From: a virus
Reading direction: 5' to 3' (one strand)
Length of the DNA: 61,104 bases
IMG/VR virus record: IMGVR_UViG_3300027833_000051
Location: 1 to 61,104 of that record
Positions 4,147-45,900 of the stretch are shown piece after piece (the stretch's first letter is position 1; every line of letters begins with the position of its first letter). Position numbers and translations under genes: made by a program. Below the pieces are notes generated by a model. That model had not been told where the DNA came from and did no database searches. It was given only the letters and a program-made list of their open reading frames with translations.

Positions 4147-4515
4147 TTACACTACTACATTACGTTTTTCTAAAGTATTTACTGTAGAGGTATTTCTAAA
4201 TCCTAGTACACTAGAGTTTAATCTATTATAATTTAATACTTCTGCTACTACTGCACTTAGTTTTGCTTCGTCAAAACCTTTAAGTGTGTCTAATAAAACA
4301 AATACTTTAATGTCATCAAGTTTTGCTTGTTGTAATAAGATTGTTCCAGTGCTAATAGCTGCTGCTTTTTCAAATCCTCTTTTTTCAAAAAATCCAATAA
4401 CTGCATCAACTTCATTAGATGCAAATGATAATTTTTCAGTAAAGTACTTGTTAAAAAAATTCGTAACACCTTTGTCATTTGTCATTACCGGAGTTGGTAA
4501 ACTACTATTATTCAT
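4147..4515 (-). CDS. Conserved small T4-like structural-region protein
   Basis: 122 residues, mostly helical. Segments such as TPVMTNDKGVTNFFNKYF, ANEVDAVIGFFEKRGF... (modelled as helices) and ILLQQAKLDDIKVFVLLD are followed by LSAVVAEVLNYNR and a C-terminal beta-like tail. From memory, a family of this size and pattern accompanies gp4 in many marine T4-like phages as a presumed virion protein. No function is established. It is packed between the tube-like gene (stop immediately upstream) and gp4 (2 bases apart), so it is probably made together with tail and head completion proteins. Confidence 0.75.
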   Translation of the reverse strand: MNNSSLPTPVMTNDKGVTNFFNKYFTEKLSFASNEVDAVIGFFEKRGFEKAAAISTGTILLQQAKLDDIKVFVLLDTLKGFDEAKLSAVVAEVLNYNRLNSSVLGFRNTSTVNTLEKRNVVV

Positions 4516-5802
4516 TTATCGTATTCCTAACTGTTCGTCTAATTTTGCCATCTCTGCTGCATTATTTTTAATTGCTTGGTAGTTTGCTTTAGCTTGAGCT
4601 GCTGTTGCGCCAGTTCTAGATTGGTATTCTTTGATTGACTGACGTTGTCTTGCACTATCCAATGCTGCTGGATTATTTCCTAAATTTCTAGTAGCACTAG
4701 TTACTGCTGACACAATGCCAACACCGGCTGCTGCTATTAGTAAATCTTTGCTTCCGCCGTTCCCACCGTTTTTTGGAAAAAATGTTTGGGCAACTCCGCC
4801 TACGTTAATACCAGTTGCCTGGCCTAATGCACTAGTAAGTATATTAAATCCTTCTTGTCTAATACCTTCTTTAGACAAGCTTCTAACATTGCCTATTAAT
4901 TGCGCTCCTTGTAGTATAGTAAGGAGTGGATTGTTGTATGCTTCGCCACTAGCAATAAATTCATAAAGGTCTAATGCTCCGCCAATTGTTCCGCCTAATC
5001 CTAATTTTCCGCCGCCCTCTAATGATATCGGACTTGGCATTTTATCGTAGTGGTCTTGTCCGAAGCCTATCGGTTCGCCATTTGCTCCTATTGTAATACT
5101 ACTTTGATTATAAAACACTGCTTCATATGCAATTTGGATACTATTAGCCATAGTTCCTGCACCGTCACTATTGTCGTGATTATCATGACTCCAATTAGTT
5201 AAAATTGGATTTACTAAGGTATATGTAGTATATTCACCTCTTGATAGTGTACTTATTTTGATACTCTTAAAAAACGGAACACCAGAGTTATTTACATCCA
5301 TACCAAATTTGTAATTATTGCGAGATGATCCTTCATATGTGCTGTGCGGAACAACTGCATATGCACGACCGTTATCTTTCTGTTGATTTCCGTCTGCAAA
5401 ATAATATCTATAATATGCCTGCAATAGTGCAGTAGTAATACCTTCGTTGTCATCGTGTAAATCAATATCAACAGGATCGTAACTAATTGATGTTTGTACA
5501 TTTTTTACTCTATTGTACTTTTTCTTTGTTTCTACATTAGCTGTAAAGCTAGGCAAGTCTGCACGTTTTACTAACATGCCTATTTCGTTTAGTGTTGATC
5601 CGCTGAATAACTTAGGAGCAATCTGTTGTGCTTCATCTGATATTTCAAAGTTAACATGAAAAAGAAATTTTGATTTTGGCGCAAGGGCCATATCTCTATC
5701 GACATACAGCCGTGCGGCGTGTTGCCAATCGGCCATATTACCTTTTGGATTTAATAAACCGCTAGATACGTTATCTAATAAACTATTGAACTTACTTGCC
5801 AT
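4516..5802 (-). CDS. Tail-tube-like baseplate protein (gp48/gp54 candidate)
   Basis: 428 residues. The N-terminal 260 or so look like the tail tube fold: KFLFHVNFEI near residue 46, LVKRADLPSF near 78, then a long beta-rich stretch (NVQTSISYDPVDIDLHDD) and an LLQAYYRYYFAD helix as in tube and tube-initiator proteins. The C-terminal 150 residues are Gly/Ala-rich and then helical. It directly follows gp19, so it may be a second tube-type protein such as the tube initiator (T4 gp54) or tube cap (gp48), whose lengths (320 and 364) are not far off. Assignment among these is uncertain. The late-promoter-like element is so close to the ATG that the mRNA may be leaderless. Confidence 0.6.
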   Translation of the reverse strand: MASKFNSLLDNVSSGLLNPKGNMADWQHAARLYVDRDMALAPKSKFLFHVNFEISDEAQQIAPKLFSGSTLNEIGMLVKRADLPSFTANVETKKKYNRVKNVQTSISYDPVDIDLHDDNEGITTALLQAYYRYYFADGNQQKDNGRAYAVVPHSTYEGSSRNNYKFGMDVNNSGVPFFKSIKISTLSRGEYTTYTLVNPILTNWSHDNHDNSDGAGTMANSIQIAYEAVFYNQSSITIGANGEPIGFGQDHYDKMPSPISLEGGGKLGLGGTIGGALDLYEFIASGEAYNNPLLTILQGAQLIGNVRSLSKEGIRQEGFNILTSALGQATGINVGGVAQTFFPKNGGNGGSKDLLIAAAGVGIVSAVTSATRNLGNNPAALDSARQRQSIKEYQSRTGATAAQAKANYQAIKNNAAEMAKLDEQLGIR

Positions 5803-19528: not shown

Positions 19529-20158
19529 ATGTACGATAAAAATAATATTGCACCTAAGTGTGTTATAGGATTAGATCGCGATGGTGTAATTAATGTTGAT
19601 CGCGGCACTTACACTTATAGGCCTCAAGACTTTATGCCAATACCTGGAAGTTTGGATGCAGTTGCTAGACTACGAAAGATGGGTCATAAAATTGCAATTA
19701 TTACTAATCAAGGCGGCATTGCAAAAGGATTATATACTGCGAATGATGTAGAACGTGTTCATGATTACATGTTTTCATTATTAGGACAAGCTGGGTGCGA
19801 TAGCATAGATGCTTTATACTACAGTGAGTCGAGCGCACGTAGTGACGTCCTTGCTAAACCAAATACAGGAATGTTTAAGTATTGCGAACAAGATGTTCCA
19901 TTTATTAAATTTAATAAAGGTTACTTTGTAGGCGATAAAATGTCTGATTTAAAGGCAGCGTTTAAAATAGGTGCAAAGCCTATTCTAGTACGTACCGGAC
20001 ACGGCGAAGAAACTATTAAAGAATTAAATAAATTTACTAATCAAAAGATAAAGAAAAAGACCATCATATTTGACGATCTTAGTTCTTTTGCAGATTGGAT
20101 AGAGTCTAAAAATATTAATTCTAATTCTAATAGCTCTATTAAATATTCTATTAGTTAG
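19529..20158 (+). CDS. gmhB: Heptose bisphosphate phosphatase-like HAD protein (GmhB type)
   Basis: 209 residues; E. coli GmhB has 191. The family removes the 7-phosphate from heptose 1,7-bisphosphate, the step between the two HldE reactions. HAD motif I is GLDRDGVIN with Asp16 and Asp18, motif II ITNQGG near 63, motif III the Lys of AKPNTGMF near 111, and motif IV VGDKMSD near 131. The stretch INVDRGTYTYRPQDFMPIPG is GmhB-like. The usual Cys/His zinc loop between motifs II and III is absent, replaced by SESSARSDVLAKP, as in some zinc-free relatives. It could instead act on a related sugar bisphosphate. The gene ends 8 bases inside the convergent oxygenase gene, in a long inverted repeat. Confidence 0.8.
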   Translation: MYDKNNIAPKCVIGLDRDGVINVDRGTYTYRPQDFMPIPGSLDAVARLRKMGHKIAIITNQGGIAKGLYTANDVERVHDYMFSLLGQAGCDSIDALYYSESSARSDVLAKPNTGMFKYCEQDVPFIKFNKGYFVGDKMSDLKAAFKIGAKPILVRTGHGEETIKELNKFTNQKIKKKTIIFDDLSSFADWIESKNINSNSNSSIKYSIS

Positions 20159-20183
20159 TAGCGCCTGTTTCTAATAGAATATT
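20142..20183. terminator. Bidirectional terminator-like inverted repeat
   Basis: A perfect 13-bp inverted repeat (AATATTCTATTAG at 20142-20154 and its complement at 20171-20183) with a 16-base loop spans both converging stop codons. It is AT-rich with no long U-tract, so it may stop or stabilise both transcripts. Confidence 0.6.
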
Positions 20184-20777
20184 AAAGGATAAACTAATAC
20201 GATCAGTATCAGTTTTATTTTCATTAACTCCGTGATCTAGATGACTAGGCCACATAACTGTTCTACCTTGCTCAGGCACAAACTGGGCTTCGTTTATTAC
20301 ACTTCCAATCGGATTACTTTTTAATGCTTTATTAGCATTTCTAAAAACTATATCACCGTCTTTGCCAGATGTCTTAAACCAATAGACTCCGCTAATTGAA
20401 TTAGTGCCGTGATCATGAATGTGTGCATATAATCCAGGTTTAGTAAGTGTTAACCACGAAGTACTAAGCACAGGTTTAAATCCTTCTTTAACTTGCATCA
20501 TGTTCATATAATTTTCACAGTGGTGTAGAATAAAAGATTTAGCAACTTTCATATCTTCATCGTTTAAGATAGACGTTGCAAAGTCGCCTTTATTAGATAG
20601 TTGTTGCGAGCTAGAGTCCCAATTTGGATTTTGCCCCCAAAGTTCATTTGAATACAGTTTGTCAACTACTCGCTGTATTTCTCCTTGCACTTCGTCGTAT
20701 TCTGTATCTTCTAGTTTATGTGTATATAACGGAGTAGGAAATAACGATATTATTTGACCTTCATTTTGTTCATCCAT
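20151..20777 (-). CDS. 2OG-Fe(II) oxygenase-like protein (2OG-FeII_Oxy_5 type)
   Basis: 208 residues. The start ISLFPTPLYTHKL is the usual opening of this family. Residues about 116-128 (AHIHDHGTNSISGVYWF) give the H-x-H...S-G-V-Y motif, WPSHLDHGVNEN near 174 the second iron-binding His, and DRISLSFNI near 195 the Arg that holds 2-oxoglutarate. Such enzymes use iron, oxygen and 2-oxoglutarate to hydroxylate a substrate; members are common in marine phages but their substrates are mostly unknown. It directly follows the carbamoyltransferase (1-base gap) on the same transcript, so it may modify the same glycan or a nucleotide-sugar. A protein-hydroxylating role is an alternative. Confidence 0.82.
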   Translation of the reverse strand: MDEQNEGQIISLFPTPLYTHKLEDTEYDEVQGEIQRVVDKLYSNELWGQNPNWDSSSQQLSNKGDFATSILNDEDMKVAKSFILHHCENYMNMMQVKEGFKPVLSTSWLTLTKPGLYAHIHDHGTNSISGVYWFKTSGKDGDIVFRNANKALKSNPIGSVINEAQFVPEQGRTVMWPSHLDHGVNENKTDTDRISLSFNILLETGATN

Positions 20778-20778
20778 A

Positions 20779-22692
20779 TTAAATTCCTTTGTTTCCTAAT
20801 CCGAAGTTGTCAATATTAACTTCATTAATTGTTTCTGTTTCGATTGATATTGTTGGTACTGCTCCGTGACCTGCTCCGTGTGCTATTTCAACCAGCATTT
20901 TTGTTGCAGGAAAGTATATATAGTTAATTTCTGAATTATATAACGTCTGCATTGCATCGTCAATAGTTTCAACTAATGGTTCGCCACCTAAGTTAAACGA
21001 AGTATTAAATAGTGCCGGTACTCCAGTTTGATTTTTAAATTCTTTAATTAAGCCGTGCCAGTGGAAGTTTTGTTCTTGAGTAACAGTTTGTATTCTGCAG
21101 GAGCCATCAACATGAATAACAGCCGGAATCTTTTCCGCTACACCTTCCTTACAACTAACAGCATACATCATACTAGGTGATTCTTCCATACCTCTAAGGT
21201 CAAACCAATCATGTACGTCTTCTTGTAATACTGATGCAGCAAATGGTCTAAAGTACTCTCTTTTCTTAATCAAGTTAACAAAGTCCTTACCATCGTGCAT
21301 TGTTGGATCAAACATTAACGATCTATTGCCCAAAGCCCGAGGACCGTTTTCGCATCGTTCTTGAAATAAAGCTACTATATTTTTTGATCTAATAGTATTA
21401 ATAACATCAGTATAACTTACATCATAACTAATTTTACCATTATATTTTGCAGCAGATTCTTCAATAGTTGTTGAGGTTATTTCTTGCACTGGTCCAAGGA
21501 AAAGACCTTCGTCTTTATCTCTAACTCGTGCGTCTTGGGTAATCTCATGATAATGATACAAAGCTGCTCCCATTGCAGTGCCTGCATCATTTGATATAGG
21601 TTCTACATATATGTTAACGTCTTCAGGTAAGTGCTTTAAGTAATAATAATTTGCGACACAATTTAATCCGTATCCGCCACTAATAACAATATTTTTATTA
21701 CCAGTGCGTTCGATAGACGTTTTAATCAAGTCAAGAACAAGCTTTTGAGATTCTATTTGAACATTGTATGCCATATTCCTGCGAGATGCTAATAATGTAA
21801 GATCTTCTTTATCAGCTTCTTCAATTAATTTACCAATTCTATTTGTTTCTTCTAGATCATCTGGGTCTGTTATTTGATCGTAAATATCTGCATATTTTAA
21901 TACTTTATCGTCAAGTTCTGGAAATTCTGTTTGATTTATTGACGAGCCGTTTGGATATGTATTAGACAATAAATTATTATCGCCACCCCATTTTCCATAA
22001 ATCTTAGGTGCCTTGTTTGGCTCACCGTACGGAAATAACCCCATAGTCTTTCCTGCTTCGATAGCGTCAAACCCGCAGAATCGAGTTACTGCTTCGTATG
22101 CTTTAACAATGCCTGCTTTATCATTAACAATTACTTCAAATCCGTTAGCATTATGATGCTCCGTTATCCACGGACCATTACCGCCAAAGTGCTTATAAAT
22201 GTCTTTAAAGTTTGCAGGATATGATACATCATACATACTTTCTACTTCCCACATAGTATCGCCATCTGGTCTAGGAACAAATGTGCCCGCACCGTCTACA
22301 ATAATTGCTGTAGCGGTTTCAAACCCGGATCTATAAAATGCACACGCAGCATGATTTCTATGATGTTGTTCCCAGGCATGCACTACTTGCGGATGTGGGC
22401 TAGTAGTCCTATTAGGTCTAATTAGTTTCATTTTTCTTGCTAACGAAGTATATGGGTCTTCAGCAGTATAGTCAGTTTTATTATCGTCTACAGCAGTGTG
22501 TGATATAACTAAATAATCTATCTTATCAGTATATTCTAAAATTTTAACAATACTAGCAAACGGAGTTCCGTCATATTTATATCTTGTTAATCGTTCTTCC
22601 TCAATAGAAAATACAATTTCTCCGTCTTTTAACAGACATACTCCAGCATTATGCCCGCGGGCTATTCCTGCAATGTATCCAGTTTGTTCCAT
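20779..22692 (-). CDS. O-carbamoyltransferase (NodU/CmcH/TobZ family) with fibre-derived tail
   Basis: 637 residues. The N-terminal domain (Carbam_trans_N) has GIARGHNAGVCLL, FSIEEERLTR and the paired-His motif QHHRNHAACAFYRSGF near residue 110, followed by IIVDGAG. The C-terminal domain has GPRALGNRSLM near 450, YFRPFAASVL and FNTSFNLGGEP near 562. This family makes carbamoyl-adenylate from carbamoyl phosphate and ATP and passes the carbamoyl group to a hydroxyl of a sugar or antibiotic. The usual end comes around residue 603. The last 34 residues instead match the 3,999-residue fibre protein (pattern GAGxGAxPTISxET, then EVNxDxFGLG). The gene overlaps the GT9 gene stop by one base. The likely acceptor is a glycan of this island. 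Confidence 0.92.
   Translation of the reverse strand: MEQTGYIAGIARGHNAGVCLLKDGEIVFSIEEERLTRYKYDGTPFASIVKILEYTDKIDYLVISHTAVDDNKTDYTAEDPYTSLARKMKLIRPNRTTSPHPQVVHAWEQHHRNHAACAFYRSGFETATAIIVDGAGTFVPRPDGDTMWEVESMYDVSYPANFKDIYKHFGGNGPWITEHHNANGFEVIVNDKAGIVKAYEAVTRFCGFDAIEAGKTMGLFPYGEPNKAPKIYGKWGGDNNLLSNTYPNGSSINQTEFPELDDKVLKYADIYDQITDPDDLEETNRIGKLIEEADKEDLTLLASRRNMAYNVQIESQKLVLDLIKTSIERTGNKNIVISGGYGLNCVANYYYLKHLPEDVNIYVEPISNDAGTAMGAALYHYHEITQDARVRDKDEGLFLGPVQEITSTTIEESAAKYNGKISYDVSYTDVINTIRSKNIVALFQERCENGPRALGNRSLMFDPTMHDGKDFVNLIKKREYFRPFAASVLQEDVHDWFDLRGMEESPSMMYAVSCKEGVAEKIPAVIHVDGSCRIQTVTQEQNFHWHGLIKEFKNQTGVPALFNTSFNLGGEPLVETIDDAMQTLYNSEINYIYFPATKMLVEIAHGAGHGAVPTISIETETINEVNIDNFGLGNKGI
20795..20880. 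repeat. 86-bp segment shared with fibre gene, copy in carbamoyltransferase
   Basis: Aligned by eye without gaps, this segment differs from 30058-30143 at about 15 of 86 positions. It is in the same reading frame in both genes and forms the last residues of the carbamoyltransferase. Confidence 0.88.
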
Positions 22693-27896: not shown

Positions 27897-30800
27897 TTAT
27901 CTTGCTAGGAAGAATCCAAGTGCAACTGGTGCACCGTCGACTCCGCCTGTAAAGTTCATCTTAGCTGTAATATTTAGCTGTCCGCCACTGGTTGTTGTAA
28001 TTTCATCGTTAGCAATAAACACTGTACCTGCTGTTAGCGTGTTAACGTTCAAGCTACTTTGTCCACCACCAATTTGTGCAGTAATATAAGATTTAATTGC
28101 ACGTTGTGTAGGAACAACACTGTCACTATTTGCAGTAAAGAATGGATCTGTACTAAACTGTGTAATAATTGCAGAGCCAATACCTAAACCAATACCTTGT
28201 AGCTGTAATGATTGTAGTCCTGCTAAGTTAAACGCATCAGCGTCCAATGTCGCAGTACCTGTACTCTGTTGTACTCCAAACAATCCGCCAACATTAAAGT
28301 TACCGTCTTGGTCAGTACTTGTAAAGAATACTCGTCCACCTTGACTGCCAAGGAATTGTCTTGATTGCAGTGCTGTTGTAATATCCACAAATGGATAATT
28401 TGTATCAGCTTGGTTACCAGTACCAATGTACAAGAAGTCGTGTCCTGTTAGACGTACTTGTGAATACTTGTTAGTAGCAGTTATTTTAGTTCCATCTAAT
28501 GGAGCATTTAATATAGTAAGTGCTGGACTTATTTGGAATGTTGCAGTATAATCACCTGCTAAGCCAATTACGTTATTAACAGCAACTAGTTTATAGAAAA
28601 CTCCTGGAATATTACCAAACTCAACGTTTGATCCTGGCTCTGGTAAGTCAAATAGTCCGCGAACTGCAACAAATGTACTTGCTTGGAACAAGTCTGCACT
28701 ACCATCGCCGCCTAATTCACCAGTAGCAGTTTGATATCCTGTACCTCTATTAGTAAACGTTGGATGACCTAATACTCCGTCACCTTGTCTAGCATCTGTA
28801 GGAGCAACAATAGTTGAATTAGGATCTGTAATAGTTACAATTGGTCCTGTTCTAAACGTTGCATTTGCAAATGTAGCTGTGCTTAATACAACTGGCGTTC
28901 CGCTATTAGCAATTAAGCTTACTGTAATTGTAGTACCATTTGGAATAGTATTAATATAGTACAATGAGTTATTAGTTAGTAATGCATCACCTACGCCTGT
29001 AAACTTAATTTGCTGTCCAACTAACAAGTTGTCAGTTGAGTCAATAGTAATAGTGTTTGCAGCCGTTGTACTTGCTACAGTACCTTTTGGATAACCTGAT
29101 CCTGGTTCTGTTATTCTAATTTCGTTTACAGATCCGTCTGCTTCTTTTAGTCTAGATTCAGCAGTTGCACCAGTTTTTAGTACTGACACTGCGGTGTTTG
29201 CCGCATTAGTCAATGCTACCCATCTTGGATTATTATCTGTGTTGCCAAACGCTAATGCGTTCCAATCTCCGCTTGCAGATAATGTTTGTCCAGTCCAAGT
29301 AACACCATCGTTACTTATTGCACATGCATCAGTACCTTCAGCTATAGCAACAAATAATCCATGTCCATATTCAACTTTTGACCAAGTTTGACTTGACGGA
29401 AGACCAGCAGCACTTGCGTACCACGTTGTTCCGTTATCAATACTATATGCAGCACTTCTGCCACCACTAGCAATTGCTACAAAACGACCGTTACCAAAAG
29501 CAGTACTTGACCAAGTAGTACTTGCTGGTAAGTTGCCTCCTTCTGCCCAAACAATACCGTTTGCACTTACTGCTGACTTATTACCGCCAGTGTTAATAGC
29601 TACGTACTTACCTGCGCCATGTGCCACACTTGAGAATGTACCTGCACTTAGTGCAATATTATCTCTTGATACCCATGTACTACCGTCTGTTGATGTTGCT
29701 GCGCTGCCTGATCCACCTGTTCCGCCAACTGCAACATAAGTGCCGCCAGCATAAACAATATCTGTAAAGTTATTGTTTGGTAATGCTGAACCTGCACTCC
29801 AAGCTGCATTTGCAGCAGCTGATAGTGCTAAGTTTGTATTAGCAGTAGATCCATTAGCAATAGCAACAAACTTAGCGTTTGTATCAACAATAGTTACTGT
29901 CGGAGCACTAGTGTAGCCAGCGCCTACTAATGGTTCGTCATTGCCGTCTAGTGTAAAGTTAATTGCAAATACGCCGCCGTTATCCATTGTTGGAAGTACA
30001 GTAGCTTGTGTGCTTGCGCCTCCACCTGATATTGTAACAGTCGGAGGACTAGTATAACCTAATCCAAAGCTATCAACGTTAACTTCAGTAATTTTATCTG
30101 TTTCAACTGATATTGTTGGTGCTGCTCCGTAACCTGCGCCAGTAGTAGTAATAGTTACTTCTTTAATTACACCATTAAGTACTGTACACACTGCTGTAGC
30201 TGCGCCACCGCCGTTTGTCGGTACAAGGTTAAGTGTCGGAGGTGATGTATAACCTTTTCCGCCATCAACGATTGTAATTTTAGCAACCTGCGTAGGACCA
30301 GGTAAACCAATGCTGTTAAGCTCGCCTAGTTCTGCTGTTAGTATAGCACCAGATCCACCTAAACCACCTACTACAGCACTTGCTGTAGCGCCTTGTCCGC
30401 CACCAAATGCCATTGCTGTCCAGTTAGCACTTGCAACTGCGCCACCAGCAGCCCAAGTAGTGCCGTCTGTTGAATACGTTGTAGCTGTGCCACTATTTTG
30501 TAATGCAACATATCTTCCTGCAGCGTATGTAGCTGCTTTATATGCTGTAGCACTATCTGTTGTAGTTGCTGTTGACGTAAATCCTGGAGCACTATATGTA
30601 ATACTTGGTTCAATAGTATAACCAGTTGTTAAGTCTAAGTTAGTTGCAATTGGAGTACCTTTAACAATATGATCCCAACCTGCTGCATACAATGTTACAG
30701 TTTGTGCAGTTGTAGTTGTTAATGCTACGGCTGCTCCACCTTCTGATGTACTTACAGTAAATGTAGTAGTATTTGGAATTGTAAGTACATAGTAAACTGT

Positions 30801-33800
30801 GTTAGCAGCTAAGTTACCAATTGCTGTACTTAGGTATATTGGCATGTTTACATATAAACTAGCAGTGTCAGCTACAGTTAGTACATTACTAGTTACAGTT
30901 GTTCCAGTAACAGTTTTGTTATCAAAACTATCTTTGTAAACTTTACTGATCTTAGTACCGTTGTTAAATGTTAACACTCTTGCAAACTGTCCAACACCTG
31001 TACCAGCAGTTAATATAATATTCATACCATTATATGCATTTGCTAGTGCAGTATCAGTAGCAGCAATAGTTACTTGTATTTCATTACCACCCTGTGCAAC
31101 GTTTTTAGCTGTTACATAATTTTCGCCGCCTGTCTCGTCGCCATCATCTAAGTCAATTAAGCGAGTTTCCATTATGCCGCCGTCTCTAAACTCGTCAGCA
31201 ATAACAGCAGCGTTAAATCCATCACCACTAATTGCAAAAGATGCGTTAGTGTAATCAGTACCTGCGTTATTATATTCTAGACGTAGAACTGCTTCGCCGT
31301 CTGTAATAACATTACCAATAAACGCATCATTTGATAAGTTATTAACTTCAGCAAACAATGGAATCTCACCAGTGTCAGTGCCTTCAGCAATAACACCGTA
31401 AGTACCATATGAACTGTTACCGTTAGTAGCACGAATACGTCCGCCTAAATCTGCAACATATCCTGAATAGTTATAGTATGAGAACACAGATACAAGCTCT
31501 GTTAATGAGTTGTTACCTGTACACCATACACCAATACCATCTGACAATACTTGTGTAAAGTCATTTGATACCATTGAACGGTTTCCGCCTGCGTGTAATG
31601 CTCCGTCGATCTTATTACCAACACAACCAACGCCAAAGTTAGTTACATTTTGAATATATGGTGATTTATTAGTAACCCATGCTTCACTATCATTTGGACC
31701 AAATCCTGGATCAAGTGCAACAAATGCACCTGCTGTAGGACGTCTTGTATTAAATTCATTAAGCTCAGTTAAGTTACCGCGTAATCCACTTAATGTTTGG
31801 TTACGTACACCAGTTGAGTTTCGTACACGATACAAGTCTGATCTTTCAGAACCATTAACAGCGTTTAAGTAAAGTTCTGCTGCTCTTAGTGCATGGTGAT
31901 TGCCCGGATACTGTAAATCGTATGTAATTGATTCAACATAGCGTATCATATCTCTGCGACATAATGCTTCATCGAAACTATAACTAACAACTGCTACTGA
32001 CGGACTGCCAGCTGTTGCAATTGCGTCTCCGCCTAAAGTTGCTGCTACTTCAATAGTTAGTTCATCAGTACGAGTAACAACATAATAAGTTACTCCTGCT
32101 GTTAATCCAAGTTCACTAACATCAAGCTTTATAGGATCTCCAACTACTAAGTTATGTGGAGTTGCAAAACCAATAGCTGCACTACTTGCACTTGTAATTG
32201 TTCCGCCGTACTGTGACTTAATCCAAGCTGTTGCTTCATTTGCAAGGAAGTTTGTATTAGCTTTAAGGATGTCAACACCTTTAATAACTTCAACATCATT
32301 TTTATAAGTGATTGTGCCAGTAACTTCTGGAGTTACGTTGCTGCCAAAGTCTAATACACTAATAACAATATCCATTAAGCTATTAACACGTTTTCTTGCA
32401 TTAGCAGTATTAAGTACGTCAAGTAGGATATCAGTGCTAGAAACATATGATGCTGCTACGTTTTTCAGTTCTCTAAATGATTGTACTGTAGCAGTTTTTT
32501 GTTTATTAAGCACCACGTCAGCTTGTGTTCCACGATAGTAAGACAATGCTGCAATAACAGTACGATAGTTACTATCCGTCATTAGATCCCAAGTCATTGC
32601 TTCAACAATTAATCCTACATCACGTTTGCATGTTTCTTCAACATACACAAGTGTTGGGTAATTTTCTGCAATATATTCGATAATTGCAGTTTTAATTAAC
32701 TCAACAGACCCTGCCAAGTTAGTAGCTTGTTGTTTTAGACTTGCATTAATACCAGTTGTCGTTGGACTATATGCCCAGACTTGAAGCACTTCTGTCGACG
32801 ATGCTTCATCTTGCATTACTGCCGTTGCGCCTTCAAAATATCTAGTTAATGTAAGCGTAGATGTTGTTGGAGTTGTTTTTACATAATATACTGAAGTAGA
32901 GTCAAGACCAGTAATTGAAGCTACATAAACTTGATCGTTTACTGCAAGACCGTGTACTCCGTCAGTAGTTATTACATTGGATGCAATACTAACTAAATTA
33001 ATTGTAGGTAGCGCAGCAATGCCTGTATCAATTATAAGTTTTAGTTGATCTATTAGTTCACCGACTCGTGTTGTTGTTGCTGCATCGCCAATTGTTTGTA
33101 CATCAGCATCTCTATACTTAGGAACAATAGCAGTTTGTATTGCACCTGGACTACCAAGTGTATTTTGTGCTAGGTCGCCTGTTAAGAATTTTGCATGATC
33201 ATACGCTGCAATTGTTGCTACTTTATCATCTTCGCTAATTACAAGTACTGCATTTTTATAATAAGATAATCCAAATTCATTTGTTGCACTATTACCACCG
33301 TATGTTAAGTCATAACGCAGCGCATCAACTAACATGCCTACATCTCTTTTACATTTTTCTTTACCGTATTCATTAGTTGGATATTCTTGATCTAAATATT
33401 CAATAACTTCAGTTTGAATAAATTCTTTATTTTCCCAAATAATTGCTGCACCGGCTACGTCTTGTGTATCAGTAGTCGATGTTGCTTGCCACTTAACACT
33501 TGGCTTCTTGCCGCCGTCAATAAACGATGTAATTTCATCAATAATTAATGATGTATGTGCTGATGCTGTAGTAGAAGCAATGTGTTTAACTTTGTAGGAT
33601 AAGAAATTAACTGCACCAATAGTAGCTTCTAATTCATTATTAGTTACTTCAGCTGTTGACGTTAACGCTCTATAATAGCTCATACCTGCTTTAATAGAAG
33701 CAAAGTTTGATCCTGTAACTAAGTCACGTGCTAATGCATCAACCATTAAGCCTGCATCTCTACGACATGTTTCTTGATTGTATTTTATTTTCTGCCAGAA

Positions 33801-36800
33801 TTTTTCAACCCAAAATACAACATCTTCAATAATTTCTAATCTGCGACTTACAAGATTATTGTAAGCAGCTCTTGTATCTGGTTCTGCCCAGGCCGTTGCA
33901 ATTTCAATAGTTGCATTTGGCTCAGCGTTGTTAATCCAATCTAATACATCATCTACTCTGTCATCTGCAAATTCAATTGTAAATGCGTTGCCAGCTGTTC
34001 CTGATGTGTCTTGTGTTAAGTTATTACCTGGTGATTTTGTTACAGTTGTTTCTGCAATAACTTCACCAATTACTGTTTTCATTCTAGCATAAGCTGCAAG
34101 TGTTGCTGGAAGTTCGTCCTGACCGATAGTTAATACAAAGTTTGAATAATATGCACTACCTGCAATTAATGACTGTGTATTGCCGCCGTATGTTAAATCA
34201 TAACGTACTGCATCAACAATATATCCAATATCTCGAATACAGTTATCTTGTGCAGAACTGCTTAGTGTTCCCCAAAATGTATCATAACTATTTGTTGAAT
34301 CTTCTAACCACTTACGCACTTCTAATTGTATAAACGCTTCGTTGGCGCCTAGTTGATCAGCAGCATTACTATAAGTTGCAACTGCTCCAGTTGTATTTGT
34401 TGCTGTAGCATATGCAAGGTCAGCAGTTAAATTAGTTGGCATAGTAAGAACATATCCAGGCAGTGCTTCTAACCCGTTTTGCACAATATTTTTAATATCG
34501 TTTGCTCTTGCAACTGCTACATTTGATTCAGCAGTTGTTCCAACCTTACTTTCAATACCTTCTGTAAGCTGAAGTAACGCTTGTTCAATAAAGTTAATAG
34601 TACTAATAGTCGGATCTAGTTGATCTGCAAGAACAACTCCGGCTGATGCTACACCTCTAAGATAAGACATGCCTGCTTTAGCAGTTCTAAAGTCACTTCC
34701 AAATAGTACATCATAAACAATAGCGTCAAGTATATACCCTACATCACGTGAACATGTAGCTTCGTTATACACTAGTGCAGGATACATAAAGTTAATGTAA
34801 TCAATTGCTGCTTCTTGTATAATAGCTTTTCTGTTGTCTACTACTGATTTAAATTGCACTAATGCAGTATCAACCCAAGCAGTACTCGGACTAATTAATG
34901 CAGGGCTATCGCCTGTGTCAATTGTAGCTTTAATTTCGTTAATACGGTCTTGTGCAAATGCTGCTGCTCCTGCACTGCCTGCTGTTCCACTAACATCTTG
35001 TGTTGTTGTGTTACCAGTAGATCTAGTAATAGCAGATCCTGTAGCAACATCATCAATAATATCAGCTATTCTAGTTTGTACAGCAAGTGCTGCTACCTTT
35101 TGGTCGCTTGGTTCTTGTAGTACTCCATTAACATAATACGAATTAGCAGCAACAATAGTTTCTAAGTTGCCACGGTATGTTAAATCATAACGCATAGCAT
35201 CAAGTATATAACCAATATCCCGCAAACATTTTGCTTTGTTAGCTACACTAAGTGAAGTCCATAAAACATTGTAATTTGTATTCATATATGCTTCAACTTC
35301 ATCAATTAAGAATTGTTTGTTAGCAACAATTAATCTACGAGCGTTAAAGAACCCAGTGTCGTAACTAGTTGGATCTGTAATAGTAAACGTAGTTGGCTCA
35401 ACTGTAGATATCATAATATCTCTAATTAGCTCTGCGCTTGTTTCAATTTTATTATTTCCTGAAGTTATATTTTTAATTTCAGATCTTAAAAACTCAATAG
35501 AGTCCAATGTAGCAGATAGTTGACTATCAATAACAACGCCAGCTGATGCAATACCTCTACGATAGCTCATGCCTGCTTTTAATGATCTAAAGCTACTATT
35601 AAACATAATGTCAAATCGTAGTGCATCAATTATAAATCCAATATCTCTTGAGCATTTAGCGTGATCATAAACAAATCCACTATACGTGTTTGTAATAAAT
35701 TGTAGTACTGCTGGTACAACAGTTGTATTTGTTAGTACGTCATTTGCATCACTTTCGATAGCGTCAGCTACCCAAGTAATACTAGGATAAACTACTGCCG
35801 GAATGTTACTTAAACTTCCTGCATCAATTGATGTTATAAGGATATCTAATAATGTGCTTACTTCAGCCTCTTCAGTTGCGCCTGTCAAGTAACCGTTAAT
35901 AATAGTTTTTAGCTGTGTCATTGCTAATACTTCAATAGCTCTTTGTGCTACCGGAAGTACTGATACCCAACCATCAAAATATGCTTTTGTTGATTCGATT
36001 GTTGCACTGTTACCGCCGTAGTTTACGTCATAGCAAAGTGCATCAATAATATAACCAGTGTCTCTTTCACAAGTTGCAGTATCATAACTTAGTGAAGGAT
36101 AGTTTGTTGTGATCCAAGTTGTTAATGCACTAATAATAGCTGCACGATTGTCTACCATTTCTGTACGTGCATCAGTTTTTGCTTGTACAGAATTTGTAAA
36201 TGTTAATGCATCTGCACTTGCTACACCGTTAGTAATGATGTCAGCTACTTCAGCCCAATATGCAGTATTACGTGTAATTGAATCTGCGTCTGAAAGTAAT
36301 GCTTCTACTAATATTTTCTCTTGTGCAATTGCTCCTAGTGTTTCAGTTAATTGGCCTGTTAATACTTTTACACTAGAACCTCTACGATATGAAAGACCAT
36401 CTCTTACTGCGTTAAAGTTAGTGTTTAATGCAATATCATATGCGGCGCCAGTTTTTAGTATACCAGAATCTCTACGACACTTAGCACTATCATATACAAA
36501 GGAACCAAAGTTGCTATTAATATAATCAATAACAGATGATTGTAATGTTGCTTTAGAAGAAAGGATCTCAGTGTTAACTGTTGTTAACGGTACTGATACC
36601 CAACTAGTGTCTGGAGCAACTACACTTGGCAATGTTCCGTCATTATCAATGCAGTCATAAATTTCTTGTATGCGTGTATCTGCAAAAGTTTCAGCAGCAC
36701 TACTACCAGCATCGTTGTCAACGTTTTGTGCAACGTTGTTACCAGTTGTTCCTACAACCGTAGTTTCAACAATGATGTCACCAATGATTGATTTTAAGTG

Positions 36801-39800
36801 TGCATATGTTGCAAGTGTTTCGTCTTTCTTGCCAGTACCGTATACTGGGTTGCCGTTTACAAAGTAACTTCTTGCAGCAACAGTAGTCTCTGAATTACCG
36901 CCGTATGTTAAGTCGTAACGTAAAGCGTCAATAATATATCTAGTATCTCTTTCGCAATTTAATGTATTAAACGTAAAGTCTGCTGCAAACGGTGCAATTA
37001 CACCGTCAACTTGTGCTTGAATCCAAGCAGTTTGTTCTGCAACAATAAACTCAACGTTTGCTGTAAGTTGTGCAACTGCATTAGCAAATCCTGCATCACT
37101 TGCATTGTTTGATCCGCTTGTAGGTGTACTACCTATTGCCGGTAATGCTGGAACTTGATCTAATCCAAGACCTAAAACATCTTGAATTAATTCTACACCA
37201 ACGTCTAATCTATCAGTAGCATCTGTTGTTCCGCCGTAGCCGTTAACAAATTGCTGTGCTGCTGTATTTCCGCTAGTAGGAGTAATTTCAATATTTTGCA
37301 TAAGATCTGGAACTAACGCTTTAATTCTGTTTAAAGAACTAATAGTTTTAGGTTTATCATTTGCTAGTAATGCAATTGCTGGTTGTGGTTGAACAACACT
37401 TGTACGTAGTTCGTCACCAACAACAGCAGTAAATTCTGGAACAATAATCGGTAATACTTCGTTATAAGTGCCAGTTTTTATAAACAGTGTTGTGTTTGGA
37501 TTAGTTACAGTAGGAATAGCTGTTGCCGAACCTGCATTTAATCCAGTTGTAATAATATCTATCATTGCTGCTGCTTTTGAAATACCAGTAGCTTCAGCTG
37601 TTAAACTAGTGTCAATGACTTGTATTGCTCTATCTCCAAGATCAATATCATTAAATGACTGATAGTTTAATGGTTGTTTGTTAGCTAAAACATCAGCTAT
37701 AATACTTTTTAGCTGTACATTTGCTGCAACTGTTTGAGTCTTTTGAGAGCCAAACGTTCCGTTAATGTATAAATTTCCTGCAGGCGTATAATAAGATTTA
37801 GCAGCTTCGGTAGTTTTTAAAGTTCCGCCTCGTGAAACATCATATATTATTGCATCAATAATTAAGCCAGTATCGCGCTCACACTTAACAGAATCGTAAG
37901 CTAAGTCGCCTACCATTCTACCAGATTGCGTAGTTAATACTAACGGAATGCCGCTATTTTGTACAGTACTAATTCTAAATTTTGTTGCAGAAGTAGCAGA
38001 TTCAACATAGTAAATTGTTCCTGCTGTGACGCCACCTAATGTGCCGGCAAACACAATTGGCATGCCAGGTGTTAGATTAGCTGTTGACGCTGTAGTGAAT
38101 TCTTGTGTACCAACTTGTGATGCTGTAACAACTACTCTATATGTATAGCCAATCCAGCTAGACACTTCCTTCATCATAAATTCTTTATTATTTTTAAGAA
38201 TAACTTTTGCTTGTGGATTCAAATAACCGTCACGTACTTGCTCTAGTGCATAACGCACACTGCTCCAAGGTTTGTCAACTGTTAGTCCGTTTATTGGTGC
38301 TGGTATGTTTTCGCCTAGTGGGCCAACATAAACAACGTTGTCGATCAAACCGTAGTTTGCCCAACTTGGTTTACCATCAGTAACACGTAGAATTTGGCCG
38401 TCAATACCAATCGGTAGTCTTGTTGGTCCGTTGTCGCCGTAATAAACTAAGTCACCTTCGGTAGTTAATGATAATGCTTCTGAACCTAATGTTAGTAGAT
38501 TCCAGTATGCTGCAACTGCATCGTTGTCTGGTCTTTTTGCTGTATCAGCTGTGTGCTTTTGTACACAGATAAAACTACTTGCTCCAAAGAACACTACATC
38601 GCCTACATTGTAAACTGTTGTTGATTTCCAAGAAGATGAATTACCTACGTGTGTAATTGTGTCAATTGCGCCTGCTGTAACACCTGTTACTGTAACAGTA
38701 ATATCGTTAGCAGGACTAGTTCCACCAACATTTGCGCCGGAGATAGTAACAACGTTAGTATCAGCATATCCTGTACCAGCAAATCCTGTTGATACACTAA
38801 TTGAATAAACTGTATTAGCTTTTACAACATCAAAACGTGCGCCTGAGCCACTTACTCCAGTAGCATTTACAGCCTGTACTTGTAGGAATGTTTCAGTACT
38901 CTGAGTCCAGTTAACACCGGAGTTTAATCGGCTCCATGCAGCGTCTGTAGTAGGCTCTGCGTCAGCGTTGTCAGTTAGTGCTACATAAGTCGAGCCACCT
39001 AATCTAACAACGTCTCCGACCAAGTAACTAGTTAGTGAAGAATATTCGCCTTGGAACTTAAAGCCGGTTGTAAATACTGACCAATCATCTGCGCTAATTG
39101 TTGGCTTGTCGCCTGTAGTATTTCTTTTAGCAACATAAACGTAACCACCATAAGTTACCGTGTCACCAGTTTGGTATGCAGTTCCAATTGCCCATGAGTC
39201 TTCAAATTGGAAGCCTTCGATGAACGAATCAAATTTAGCTTCGTCTGACTCAAACGCATTTGATGTGTGCGCCTCAGTTACAATCCAAATATTGCCGCCG
39301 TACTTAACTAAGTCATTAACACGATATCTAGTTGCTGTTACCCAGTCACCTGTGTAAACAATACCGTCACTAAATAATGTCCATTTAGAAGAGTCAGCTT
39401 CTAAACCTAAAATATCTGTTGCTGCTGAAACGTGTGCAGTATTACAAACATAAACAAATCCACCGTAGCGAACTAGGTCATTTATTTTAAATCTTGTTGT
39501 GTTTGTCCAAGAACTTTTCCAATCAAAGGAAGTTGCAAACGCTGTCCATTTTGACAAATCATTTTCTAATCCTAAATATGTCGGTGATGCATATGTAGCT
39601 GATACGTGACCAGTTTCGCAAATGTAAACATTTGCACCATACTTAACCACGTCACCCGGAGCATATTCTACTTCAGATTCCCAATCACCTTTCCAACTAG
39701 TTCCGTCAGATACTATTTCCCACTTAGGTATTTCATTGGTAAAATCTGTGTTAAATTCTGATGCAGCAGTGTGATTTTTAATACATATATAAGATTTGCC

Positions 39801-39896
39801 ACCAAAACTTATAACATCGTCTGCAACATATGCTCTACCTGTTGCCCAGTCACCCTGCCATACAAATCTAATTCTACCTAGTTTAAATTCTGCCAT
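27897..39896 (-). CDS. Giant fibre/adhesin with CBM-like, Cys-Arg-Asp, beta-helix and Asp-box repeats
   Basis: 3,999 residues, far larger than any T4 fibre. From the N-terminus: seven CBM5/12-like units (W-x-x-x-x-x-Y, G-D-x-V-x-Y-G-G, Y-x-C, H-T/V-S) in about 1-450; twelve Cys-x-Arg-Asp modules (31917-37883), mostly alternating between two types; a beta-helix region with SPYIQNVTNFGVGCVG, GGNRSMVSNDFTQ and ATNGNSSYGTYG; then Asp-box/BNR-like repeats (S-x-D-x-x-x-T-W, FGNGRFVAIASGG). A G-Y-T-S-x-P-T-V-T-I repeat follows, one copy of which matches the carbamoyltransferase tail. The end shares F-x-S-T-D-Q-D-G-N-F-x-V-G-x-L-F and VPTQRAIKSY with the next giant protein. No signal peptide is present. 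It is probably a long trimeric host-binding fibre. It has its own late-type promoter. Confidence 0.85.
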   Translation of the reverse strand: MAEFKLGRIRFVWQGDWATGRAYVADDVISFGGKSYICIKNHTAASEFNTDFTNEIPKWEIVSDGTSWKGDWESEVEYAPGDVVKYGANVYICETGHVSATYASPTYLGLENDLSKWTAFATSFDWKSSWTNTTRFKINDLVRYGGFVYVCNTAHVSAATDILGLEADSSKWTLFSDGIVYTGDWVTATRYRVNDLVKYGGNIWIVTEAHTSNAFESDEAKFDSFIEGFQFEDSWAIGTAYQTGDTVTYGGYVYVAKRNTTGDKPTISADDWSVFTTGFKFQGEYSSLTSYLVGDVVRLGGSTYVALTDNADAEPTTDAAWSRLNSGVNWTQSTETFLQVQAVNATGVSGSGARFDVVKANTVYSISVSTGFAGTGYADTNVVTISGANVGGTSPANDITVTVTGVTAGAIDTITHVGNSSSWKSTTVYNVGDVVFFGASSFICVQKHTADTAKRPDNDAVAAYWNLLTLGSEALSLTTEGDLVYYGDNGPTRLPIGIDGQILRVTDGKPSWANYGLIDNVVYVGPLGENIPAPINGLTVDKPWSSVRYALEQVRDGYLNPQAKVILKNNKEFMMKEVSSWIGYTYRVVVTASQVGTQEFTTASTANLTPGMPIVFAGTLGGVTAGTIYYVESATSATKFRISTVQNSGIPLVLTTQSGRMVGDLAYDSVKCERDTGLIIDAIIYDVSRGGTLKTTEAAKSYYTPAGNLYINGTFGSQKTQTVAANVQLKSIIADVLANKQPLNYQSFNDIDLGDRAIQVIDTSLTAEATGISKAAAMIDIITTGLNAGSATAIPTVTNPNTTLFIKTGTYNEVLPIIVPEFTAVVGDELRTSVVQPQPAIALLANDKPKTISSLNRIKALVPDLMQNIEITPTSGNTAAQQFVNGYGGTTDATDRLDVGVELIQDVLGLGLDQVPALPAIGSTPTSGSNNASDAGFANAVAQLTANVEFIVAEQTAWIQAQVDGVIAPFAADFTFNTLNCERDTRYIIDALRYDLTYGGNSETTVAARSYFVNGNPVYGTGKKDETLATYAHLKSIIGDIIVETTVVGTTGNNVAQNVDNDAGSSAAETFADTRIQEIYDCIDNDGTLPSVVAPDTSWVSVPLTTVNTEILSSKATLQSSVIDYINSNFGSFVYDSAKCRRDSGILKTGAAYDIALNTNFNAVRDGLSYRRGSSVKVLTGQLTETLGAIAQEKILVEALLSDADSITRNTAYWAEVADIITNGVASADALTFTNSVQAKTDARTEMVDNRAAIISALTTWITTNYPSLSYDTATCERDTGYIIDALCYDVNYGGNSATIESTKAYFDGWVSVLPVAQRAIEVLAMTQLKTIINGYLTGATEEAEVSTLLDILITSIDAGSLSNIPAVVYPSITWVADAIESDANDVLTNTTVVPAVLQFITNTYSGFVYDHAKCSRDIGFIIDALRFDIMFNSSFRSLKAGMSYRRGIASAGVVIDSQLSATLDSIEFLRSEIKNITSGNNKIETSAELIRDIMISTVEPTTFTITDPTSYDTGFFNARRLIVANKQFLIDEVEAYMNTNYNVLWTSLSVANKAKCLRDIGYILDAMRYDLTYRGNLETIVAANSYYVNGVLQEPSDQKVAALAVQTRIADIIDDVATGSAITRSTGNTTTQDVSGTAGSAGAAAFAQDRINEIKATIDTGDSPALISPSTAWVDTALVQFKSVVDNRKAIIQEAAIDYINFMYPALVYNEATCSRDVGYILDAIVYDVLFGSDFRTAKAGMSYLRGVASAGVVLADQLDPTISTINFIEQALLQLTEGIESKVGTTAESNVAVARANDIKNIVQNGLEALPGYVLTMPTNLTADLAYATATNTTGAVATYSNAADQLGANEAFIQLEVRKWLEDSTNSYDTFWGTLSSSAQDNCIRDIGYIVDAVRYDLTYGGNTQSLIAGSAYYSNFVLTIGQDELPATLAAYARMKTVIGEVIAETTVTKSPGNNLTQDTSGTAGNAFTIEFADDRVDDVLDWINNAEPNATIEIATAWAEPDTRAAYNNLVSRRLEIIEDVVFWVEKFWQKIKYNQETCRRDAGLMVDALARDLVTGSNFASIKAGMSYYRALTSTAEVTNNELEATIGAVNFLSYKVKHIASTTASAHTSLIIDEITSFIDGGKKPSVKWQATSTTDTQDVAGAAIIWENKEFIQTEVIEYLDQEYPTNEYGKEKCKRDVGMLVDALRYDLTYGGNSATNEFGLSYYKNAVLVISEDDKVATIAAYDHAKFLTGDLAQNTLGSPGAIQTAIVPKYRDADVQTIGDAATTTRVGELIDQLKLIIDTGIAALPTINLVSIASNVITTDGVHGLAVNDQVYVASITGLDSTSVYYVKTTPTTSTLTLTRYFEGATAVMQDEASSTEVLQVWAYSPTTTGINASLKQQATNLAGSVELIKTAIIEYIAENYPTLVYVEETCKRDVGLIVEAMTWDLMTDSNYRTVIAALSYYRGTQADVVLNKQKTATVQSFRELKNVAASYVSSTDILLDVLNTANARKRVNSLMDIVISVLDFGSNVTPEVTGTITYKNDVEVIKGVDILKANTNFLANEATAWIKSQYGGTITSASSAAIGFATPHNLVVGDPIKLDVSELGLTAGVTYYVVTRTDELTIEVAATLGGDAIATAGSPSVAVVSYSFDEALCRRDMIRYVESITYDLQYPGNHHALRAAELYLNAVNGSERSDLYRVRNSTGVRNQTLSGLRGNLTELNEFNTRRPTAGAFVALDPGFGPNDSEAWVTNKSPYIQNVTNFGVGCVGNKIDGALHAGGNRSMVSNDFTQVLSDGIGVWCTGNNSLTELVSVFSYYNYSGYVADLGGRIRATNGNSSYGTYGVIAEGTDTGEIPLFAEVNNLSNDAFIGNVITDGEAVLRLEYNNAGTDYTNASFAISGDGFNAAVIADEFRDGGIMETRLIDLDDGDETGGENYVTAKNVAQGGNEIQVTIAATDTALANAYNGMNIILTAGTGVGQFARVLTFNNGTKISKVYKDSFDNKTVTGTTVTSNVLTVADTASLYVNMPIYLSTAIGNLAANTVYYVLTIPNTTTFTVSTSEGGAAVALTTTTAQTVTLYAAGWDHIVKGTPIATNLDLTTGYTIEPSITYSAPGFTSTATTTDSATAYKAATYAAGRYVALQNSGTATTYSTDGTTWAAGGAVASANWTAMAFGGGQGATASAVVGGLGGSGAILTAELGELNSIGLPGPTQVAKITIVDGGKGYTSPPTLNLVPTNGGGAATAVCTVLNGVIKEVTITTTGAGYGAAPTISVETDKITEVNVDSFGLGYTSPPTVTISGGGASTQATVLPTMDNGGVFAINFTLDGNDEPLVGAGYTSAPTVTIVDTNAKFVAIANGSTANTNLALSAAANAAWSAGSALPNNNFTDIVYAGGTYVAVGGTGGSGSAATSTDGSTWVSRDNIALSAGTFSSVAHGAGKYVAINTGGNKSAVSANGIVWAEGGNLPASTTWSSTAFGNGRFVAIASGGRSAAYSIDNGTTWYASAAGLPSSQTWSKVEYGHGLFVAIAEGTDACAISNDGVTWTGQTLSASGDWNALAFGNTDNNPRWVALTNAANTAVSVLKTGATAESRLKEADGSVNEIRITEPGSGYPKGTVASTTAANTITIDSTDNLLVGQQIKFTGVGDALLTNNSLYYINTIPNGTTITVSLIANSGTPVVLSTATFANATFRTGPIVTITDPNSTIVAPTDARQGDGVLGHPTFTNRGTGYQTATGELGGDGSADLFQASTFVAVRGLFDLPEPGSNVEFGNIPGVFYKLVAVNNVIGLAGDYTATFQISPALTILNAPLDGTKITATNKYSQVRLTGHDFLYIGTGNQADTNYPFVDITTALQSRQFLGSQGGRVFFTSTDQDGNFNVGGLFGVQQSTGTATLDADAFNLAGLQSLQLQGIGLGIGSAIITQFSTDPFFTANSDSVVPTQRAIKSYITAQIGGGQSSLNVNTLTAGTVFIANDEITTTSGGQLNITAKMNFTGGVDGAPVALGFFLAR
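30058..30143. repeat. 86-bp segment shared with carbamoyltransferase, copy in fibre
   Basis: This is the counterpart of 20795-20880. It sits in a run of related GYTSPPTVTI-type repeats of the fibre, so the fibre is the probable source and the carbamoyltransferase the recipient. Confidence 0.88.
31917..37883 (-). repeat. Twelve Cys-x-Arg-Asp protein modules, mostly alternating
   Basis: Twelve copies of C-x-R-D-x-G-x-I/L-x-D-A-x-x-Y-D lie near 37,860, 36,930, 36,460, 36,045, 35,635, 35,205, 34,730, 34,220, 33,745, 33,325, 32,605 and 31,940. They are spaced by about 410-510 bases in the middle. From copy 2 to 11, copies ending LTYGGN plus YY-x-N (type A) mostly alternate with copies ending in FRS-x-KAGMSYxRG (type B). 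This points to duplication of an A-B pair of about 900 bases. Confidence 0.85.
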
Positions 39897-42900: not shown

Positions 42901-45900
42901 GTTACTGCTTGAGATGCAGTTGCATTTGTTGTTATTACAGAATCTGATAACGTAAATGTAGTACCGTCTAATAATGTATTAACCCAGTACTGAGTTTTTT
43001 CAAGTAATCCGCCAATTGCTCCTGATCTAAAAGTTATAGGGTTCATTGGTATTAATGTAGAAGTATCAGCAATAGTTAAGCTATTAGTCGATGCAGTTGA
43101 TGCAGTTGTGTCAAACGTTAATCTATTTGCTGATATTGAAAAACGAGTTGCATCATATATATCATGAATAAAATAAGTCTGACCAAGAGTAACTTCGCCT
43201 AAACTTGTTCCAGTAAATTGTACCGGCAATCCAACACTCATATCTGCTGTGCTAGATGCAGCTAGGTAACTAGTCTCTGATGGAAAGTTTATTGTAAACT
43301 GCGGATACTCAGATGTTAAAACAATCGGTGCGCCTTGCGGGTCATCAATATTAGTATTAACTAGTGGCCAAACGCCGCCACCTAGTGTTGTTGATATTTG
43401 AATTGTTGTGTCGTCAATTATATTAATAATAAAATAGTCAAACCCTACAGCTACTCCGCCAAATGGTGTTCCAGTAAAGTTAACTTTCTGTCCAACTTTT
43501 AACTGTGTAGTAGTAGTAACATACAAGTAGTTATTTAAATCACCTAACGCAGCTAGTACTTGTGTTGCACTCTGTGCTGTAGAATCAACATCAACATCAT
43601 AAAATGTTGGCGTAAACTGTATTTTCTGTCCAGTATACACAGTATTAAAGTCTACATCATCGTCTAATCGAAATCTATCTGATGTTGCATTAGTTGAAAC
43701 AATTTCCAAGCTCTCAAATGATTCTTTAAGAACATCTGCACGTTTATTGTTTGCATTATACCTAGATATAATACCGTATTGTCCTGATCCTACACCACTT
43801 GAAATACTTAGTCGCATACTTTCATATTCTGGTGCAGTTGCAACTTCTGAACCTGCAAGTACCAAGTGTTCAGAATCACCTGATTGTGCATTATTGGTTT
43901 GGAATTTATATCCTAGGCCGCCTGATGTAAATGCAGAACTTTCTAATACACGAGTTTGGTATACTCCGCCGCTGCGCAATTCGTCTGCAACGATCATAGC
44001 ATCTCTACCTGCACCACTTACATTAACATTTGCATACGATGTAGGCGTAGTATCATCTGTTTCTAAGAAGAATGATAAATTGCCAGTTTGTAACTGTGCG
44101 CCGTAAAAGTTAGTTTCGCCTGATAGTCCATCAGTACCACGTGGATATACTTTAAATTGCAATGATGTATTTTGTGCAGTAATGTCCCAGTATGAATAAG
44201 AAATTCTATACCATCCATCTTCAAGAATAGTTGCAGTGTATACTTCTGGAACAATTCCATTATCAGGATCTACTATTGTAGTTAACACCCCTGTAGTAAA
44301 ATTAAACCTTACAGCAGATGTTCTAGTGCTATACCCTGAGAATATTGAATACATATCAAAATATGATGCTGTACCTTTCTTAGCATAGATACTTGTAGTA
44401 TACCGCAACGATGTACCATCTGGTACAGTACCGTCATGACTAACTTGTAAAATTGCCGTAATAGATAGTGTATCCACAGTAACTATAATATCGTTAACTG
44501 TAGGTTGGGCTCCAAATAACTGGCCGCTAAGTCTAATTTGATTGCCAACAACATAACCGCTTCCGCCGGCATTTACACTAACTTGATATCCGTCACTGAA
44601 TACTGTTACATCAAAGGTTGCATCAATTCCTGATCCATCTTCGTTTACCCCTGCAACTCCGACATATACTCTACCTTGTGGCGAAACAGGAACATCTTGA
44701 TAAAAATAACTAGAATTAGTTAAGTCAGTAATACCTTCAATTTTCCAGGCATCTTCATTTACAAATGGAGTTGTTGCTGCTTTAACAATGTTAAGATTTC
44801 CGTCTGTCTGCCAGGCTGTATCTACAAGGTTATTACTTTGTGGTAATAAGTTTGTTGTAGTTTCGTAGTACTCTTCGCCAGCATGACTAAATGCTATTTT
44901 TAAAATTTCAGCTTGTGTACCTAGCGCACTAACTGCTAGTGCCGATGCTTGATTACTTCTGTTATTTACATTACCAACTGCTGGTACTTCGTCTTCTGCA
45001 AAGCCTTCTGCAATGGCACCAAATTGTCCATATGAACTGTTACCGTTAGTAGCACGAATTCTACCACCGTCTTCTGCAAAGTATCCTGTGTAGTTATAGT
45101 ATGAGAACACAGATACACATTCTACTAGTGCGTCACCGCCTGTACACCATACTCCGATACCGTCTGATATAATTTGTGTAAAGTCGTTACAAACTATAGA
45201 TCTATTACCACCATTGTGTAATGTACTATCAATTTTTAAACCTACACAACCAATACCAAAGTTAGTAACGTTTTGAATGTATGGTGATTTACTAGTAATC
45301 CAAGCAGTAGTGTCATTTACGCCTTGGCCTGGATCTAGTGCAACAAACGATCCACCTGACGGTCTACGTGTTGAATATTCATTTTGCGGAGTAAGTGTAC
45401 CTAGTAGACCACTCATTGTTAAGTTACGCACACCACAGCCATTTTGTACACGTATCATATCATTTAGAGCGTTTCCGCCGTATACATACATATAACCAAT
45501 ATTAGTTGTTAGCAATACTTCTTCACCATCTGGAGTTGCACTAACTTTAAATGCGCCATCTCTAATTGACGATCCAATCACATAGTATGTTATACCTTGA
45601 ACAATGTTTGGTCCGCCTATTTTTGTACTAATTTCGTCAACTGGATTTAATGATACAAATTGTACTGGTGTGTTGTTAACCATATTAACTGTTGACCCAA
45701 CACGGAATTCATTAATCTCGCCAAACGTTCTTGTGCATAATGTGTTAATTGGATTAAGAGGCTTAATAGCTGCACCACGAAGTTCGTCACCGTTTAGTGC
45801 AGTTTTTGGAGGAAGTACAATCGGTAGCGATTCTTCGTACGTACCTGATTTAAGGTTAATTGTAGTATACGCACCTTGATTTGCCGGAGGAATATTATCT

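Follow-up and report, generated by a model that had tools for sequence, protein, structure and literature searches.

A carbamoyltransferase tail copied from a giant fibre-like gene in a small clade of T4-like phages

The carbamoyltransferase encoded by the 61,104-nt stretch of viral DNA analysed here (the window) ends in a tail whose 28 codons match, in frame, a unit of a giant fibre-like structural gene located elsewhere in the same stretch. Comparison with the sequences of relatives demonstrates that the copying ran from fibre to enzyme and that the tail is restricted to one clade. The account given here, to which we attach good confidence, is that short ectopic copying took place once and produced a tolerated C-terminal extension that has been loosely constrained since then. 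The phage is T4-like (contractile-tailed), judging from the gp15-type tail sheath stabiliser and the sheath C-terminal domain encoded in the window, and the tail-bearing group consists of a few uncultured T4-like viruses of bacteria.

The enzyme, the fibre unit and their match

The carbamoyltransferase gene (positions 20779..22692, minus strand; 637 amino acids, NodU/CmcH/TobZ type) is identified by its Pfam domains, Carbam_trans_N and Carbam_trans_C, which score 94.8 and 187.6 bits against curated cut-offs of 24 and 27, and by matches of its predicted structure. Foldseek confirmed the O-carbamoyltransferase fold of the model, the matches being VtdB (7xb6, E 7.8e-33) and the TobZ entries 3ven-3vf4 (3ves, E 1.1e-31), with E values of 1e-29 to 1e-33. 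Residues His110, His111, His114, Asp369 and Gly371 are invariant in 58 sequences, and we take them to belong to the metal and nucleotide sites, with roles as in TobZ and Kae1-type enzymes. The next gene downstream, a putative 2OG-Fe(II) oxygenase (20151..20777, minus strand), starts one base past the carbamoyltransferase stop codon, and the neighbourhood also includes a cytidylyltransferase/PfkB-type gene, an epimerase, a cupin and a HAD phosphatase. From these gene families the role of the enzyme is probably sugar carbamoylation. In three relatives (L013 at 4432-5518, L014 and L016) a 362-amino-acid partial paralogue, absent from the window, lies directly upstream of the full carbamoyltransferase gene.

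The catalytic body ends well before the stop codon. The match to the Pfam C-terminal domain stops at residue 594, and in the AlphaFold2 model (mean pLDDT 82, 35 sequences) the body is folded to residue 603, its last strand spanning residues 599-603. The C-terminus then reads ...MLVEIAH, followed by GAGHGAVPTISIETETINEVNIDNFGLG and by NKGI and the stop codon. The grafted segment comprises residues 606-633 (84 nt, 20794..20877, minus strand), and the model leaves residues 610-637 unfolded, with a pLDDT of about 30, a value that is low partly because only two rows of the alignment carry the tail, which lowers confidence by itself.

The donor unit, GAGYGAAPTISVETDKITEVNVDSFGLG, occupies residues 3253-3280 (30057..30140, minus strand) of a fibre-like structural frame of 3,999 amino acids (27897..39896, minus strand), which has CBM_5_12 repeats near its N-terminus. 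The surrounding repeat region (29691-30440, 250 amino acids) gave no tblastn match among 50,697 isolate phage records, and nothing meaningful came back when the fibre fragment was compared with solved structures by Foldseek (best E 0.24); despite the lack of a database match, AlphaFold2 modelled the region with confidence (mean 86, 14 sequences). In this model the copied segment is a beta-hairpin among GxGYTSxPT-type repeats, with strands at positions 109-113 and 116-127 of the fragment and pLDDT above 90. The window encodes a second giant fibre-like protein of 3,029 amino acids; both genes are alike at their ends and look like paralogues, with 300 nt (31380-31679 and 45003-45302) at 76% identity.

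Enzyme codons 606-633 (nt 20877-20794) align with fibre codons 3253-3280 (nt 30140-30057), both on the minus strand and in the same frame, with 70 of 84 nucleotides (83%) and 20 of 28 residues (71%) identical. A preliminary description of the sequence had noticed this in-frame match at about 83% identity by eye and had proposed a BLASTN comparison of the tail with the window. The match was confirmed by blastn of the enzyme gene (E 3.4e-20, 92 bits), and an unguided repeat search returned it as well (20795-20877 with 30058-30140, 84% over 83 nt). Of the interval given in that description, 20795-20880, the match is real, and the 5' edge is 3 nt too long, positions 20878-20880 reading CAC in one gene and ACT in the other. 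On either side of the 28-codon block the similarity drops to chance level, so that its borders are sharp. Codon-shuffled versions of the tail (300) scored at most 51/84, and none of 145 other 84-nt segments taken from the enzyme gene scored above 47/84 elsewhere in the window; these controls, together with the blastn E value, rule out random-level similarity. An assembly chimera is ruled out too, because the tail is confirmed by five further contigs from other assemblies (L001-L005).

Distribution of the tail and origin of the unit

Eighty viral relatives of the carbamoyltransferase were listed in a scan of IMG/VR, and each was read to its stop codon. The tail was present only in L001-L005, the five closest relatives, whose proteins are 93-100% identical and whose DNA identity to the window is 99.96% for L001 and about 90-92% for the other four. 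The next relatives (L006-L016 and L029, 68-74% identity) terminate exactly where the graft starts, with endings such as H-NDRA-stop and H-NERE-stop; more distant carbamoyltransferases terminate near positions 601-610, a few of them with short unrelated endings, and the isolate-phage enzymes, among the matches listed, stop by residue 607. Hence, the comparison of tailed and tail-less enzymes that the preliminary description had suggested places the tail in a single clade, and its statement that normal family members end before this segment holds for 75 of the 80 listed viral relatives, the closest outgroup included. A tblastn search of isolate phage records with the 32-residue tail gave no match, E values up to 10 being allowed, and no encoded relative of the tail turned up when one genome each for 84,980 species of bacteria and archaea was scanned by pattern. 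A tail common in carbamoyltransferases without any relation to fibres, which would have spoken against copying, was thus not found among the viral relatives, the isolates or those species. That the enzyme family had the tail from early on and most members lost it, or that the tail is a widespread domain unrelated to the fibre, is extremely improbable given this distribution and the native place of the unit in a series of fibre repeats; in these searches no tailed carbamoyltransferase was found outside the clade, and the idea of an old family feature was rejected.

The fibre unit is distributed in another manner. When tail and fibre units served as queries, the hits were the five tailed enzymes and, for the rest, large fibre-like frames. 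In 15 other viral contigs the unit occupies the orthologous place of a fibre-like gene, always in the context ..GVIxEVxxTxT-GAGYxxxPT..ETDKxT..-GYxxxPTVTxxGGGAS.., and in three of them (L009, L010 and L029) the orthologous unit and a tail-less enzyme lie on a single contig. Since the unit is widespread in fibres, also in phages with tail-less enzymes, the copying must have run from fibre to enzyme, as the preliminary description had supposed. At the DNA level the tails share 83-86% identity with the window's fibre unit, against 54-56% with that of these tail-less relatives, and so the donor was the clade's own version. The features to be expected of an ectopic copy are therefore seen together: the relatives of the recipient lack the segment, those of the donor carry it at the orthologous place, and the DNA similarity is sharply bordered and highest to the donor of the same clade. 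A recurrent mobile patch was also considered and, within the reach of the searches, rejected, as the unit was found in one enzyme clade and one fibre-gene place and the window holds no other patch of this kind shared across genes. At E 1e-9 the tail is the sole short partial match between genes of the window when at least one of the two is under 900 amino acids.

Junctions, timing and change after copying

The 5' junction of the graft lies directly after His605, a residue common to the relatives. The 3' edge can be read in two ways, with an ambiguity of about 15 nt covering the last codons NKGI-stop (20779..20793, minus strand). They may correspond to the NDRA-stop of the relatives, which would make the graft a pure insertion of 28 codons, or they may be the translated ribosome-binding site AAAGGA of the oxygenase gene, in which case the old end would have been replaced. 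Both readings leave the fibre-derived block unaltered. Inspection of the junctions revealed no convincing microhomology.

The number of events can be judged from the two tail alleles, which at certain bases agree with each other against both of the clade's fibre units (CAC for TAC, ATY for GTT and AAT for AAC). A codon likelihood fit places the two tails together (lnL -214.15 vs -216.60 and -216.79), in conflict with codon 23 of the unit, where the window tail goes with the window fibre and the L002 tail with L083. Most simply, a single copying event before the two lineages split would explain these patterns, a reading with modest support. A history in which the fibre converted the tail repeatedly is disfavoured by the grouping of the tails. 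Between tail and fibre dS is 0.22-0.45, which is of the same order as the values between the lineages (0.20-0.33 for the enzyme bodies and 0.28 for the fibre units), and the copy thus seems not much older than the lineage split.

Two further observations concern recombination in these genomes. In the carbamoyltransferase genes of L002 (4840-6765) and L003 (2952-4865) the bodies differ at a dS of 0.24 while their final 60 codons and the tails are identical, a pattern that signals recent homologous recombination close to the 3' end. Apart from this, an exact 44-nt direct repeat (1066-1109 and 1792-1835, 726 bases apart), which encodes VAAQDELSATDTAQ twice, sits in a minus-strand frame with a peptidoglycan-binding domain (706-2037). 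A single copy can be recognised in each of the relatives L116 and L118, so the repeat of the window may be a recent short-patch copy, and it hints that such copying occurs elsewhere in the lineage.

Since the 3' ends of L002 and L003 are identical, the independent tail sequences number two, of 28 codons each. Between the window and L002/L003 the tail shows a dN of 0.218 and a dS of 0.295, whereas the enzyme body shows a dN of 0.019-0.029 and a dS of 0.20-0.33; that is, the amino acids of the tail have changed about 10 times faster than those of the body at similar dS. The ratio of non-synonymous to synonymous changes is 12:5 in the tail vs 41:103 in the body (Fisher test, p 0.0016). A codon model gave the tails an omega of 0.44, which differs from the 0.076 of the body (p 0.0035) and not significantly from 1 (p 0.195), a neutrality test that is weak because only two independent alleles are available. 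The fibre unit has an omega of 0.11 between the clade's two fibre sequences. Between tail and fibre omega is 0.2-0.4, along a path that includes part of the fibre's own evolution, and was significantly below 1 in one case (window tail vs window fibre, p 0.019). The frame has stayed open in both tail lineages, as would be expected with a probability of 0.7 when about 2% of changes are nonsense and 17 changes have occurred.

Fate and significance of the tail

The events can be arranged as follows. A single ectopic recombination or template-switch in the ancestor of the clade would have taken one 28-codon beta-hairpin unit of its giant fibre-like gene, within one genome or between co-infecting relatives, and put it, in frame, at the 3' end of the enzyme gene, adjoining the original stop. 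Since it follows the final strand of the catalytic fold and leaves the next gene intact, the new tail would plausibly have been harmless and tolerated, and it would afterwards have drifted under little constraint, presumably without an important function.

A small general benefit of a C-terminal extension, independent of the fibre and in which the exact sequence matters little, is improbable, although it comes next after tolerated drift. Stability, solubility, or a loosened overlap or spacing with the next gene would be candidates. The end of the enzyme and the start of the oxygenase appear to overlap in the tail-less L007, L008 and L010 and are separate in the tailed clade, as such a benefit would have it, but they are also separate in the tail-less L006.

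The preliminary description had set plain recombination beside a docking tag that brings the enzyme to the fibre. The former is favoured, and positive evidence for the latter was not obtained. The hairpin would recruit the enzyme to the fibre, for example by adding strands to its beta-sheet, and the enzyme would then be packaged into virions or would modify sugars bound to the fibre. The copied piece, a hairpin in the fibre, is indeed nearly a whole structural unit, from GxG turn to GxG turn, the frame was kept in two lineages, and both tails show PTISIET and FGLG unaltered. However, the amino acids change rapidly, in a manner indistinguishable from neutral, the tail is unfolded in the enzyme model, tail-less phages possess the orthologous unit together with the orthologous enzyme, and a copy of part of a protein need not bind that protein. 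Docking is accordingly given a very small chance, which it owes to the small number of known alleles and to a copied piece that nearly makes up a structural unit. Its most specific form, a self-made docking module whose strand pair inserts into the sheet of the fibre repeats so that the fibre carries a sugar-modifying enzyme, is a shade less credible still. If docking were true, the target would itself have supplied its targeting signal in a single step, of which there would be few examples.

This is a clean case of a protein gaining a new C-terminus: one can see which gene gave and which received, in what direction and at what relative time, and one can trace what became of the copy. It is also a warning that patches common to two phage proteins need not imply an interaction. 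In the literature no report of a graft from a fibre to a carbamoyltransferase was found.

The window enzyme has counterparts in cultured phages. The carbamoyltransferases of marine T4-like phages (annotated as 'Nol-like carbamoyltransferase', for instance in Synechococcus phage S-SSM7 and Prochlorococcus phage P-SSM2) are 45-53% identical to its body over residues 4-603, with which they share the TobZ/VtdB/GdmN fold, and among the matches listed none of these isolates has the tail. The cyanophage genes listed by Sullivan et al. 2010 (PMC3037559) measure at most 1,803 bp, and the window gene 1,914 bp.

The process itself is ordinary phage mosaicism; what is neat is that donor, recipient and direction can all be seen. 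In phage mosaicism, segments of tail-fibre genes are exchanged between phages as modules. The case described here resembles such exchange in that a short in-frame fibre segment was moved between non-allelic places by recombination, and differs from it in that the recipient is a metabolic enzyme instead of a fibre and the copy is only 84 nt long.
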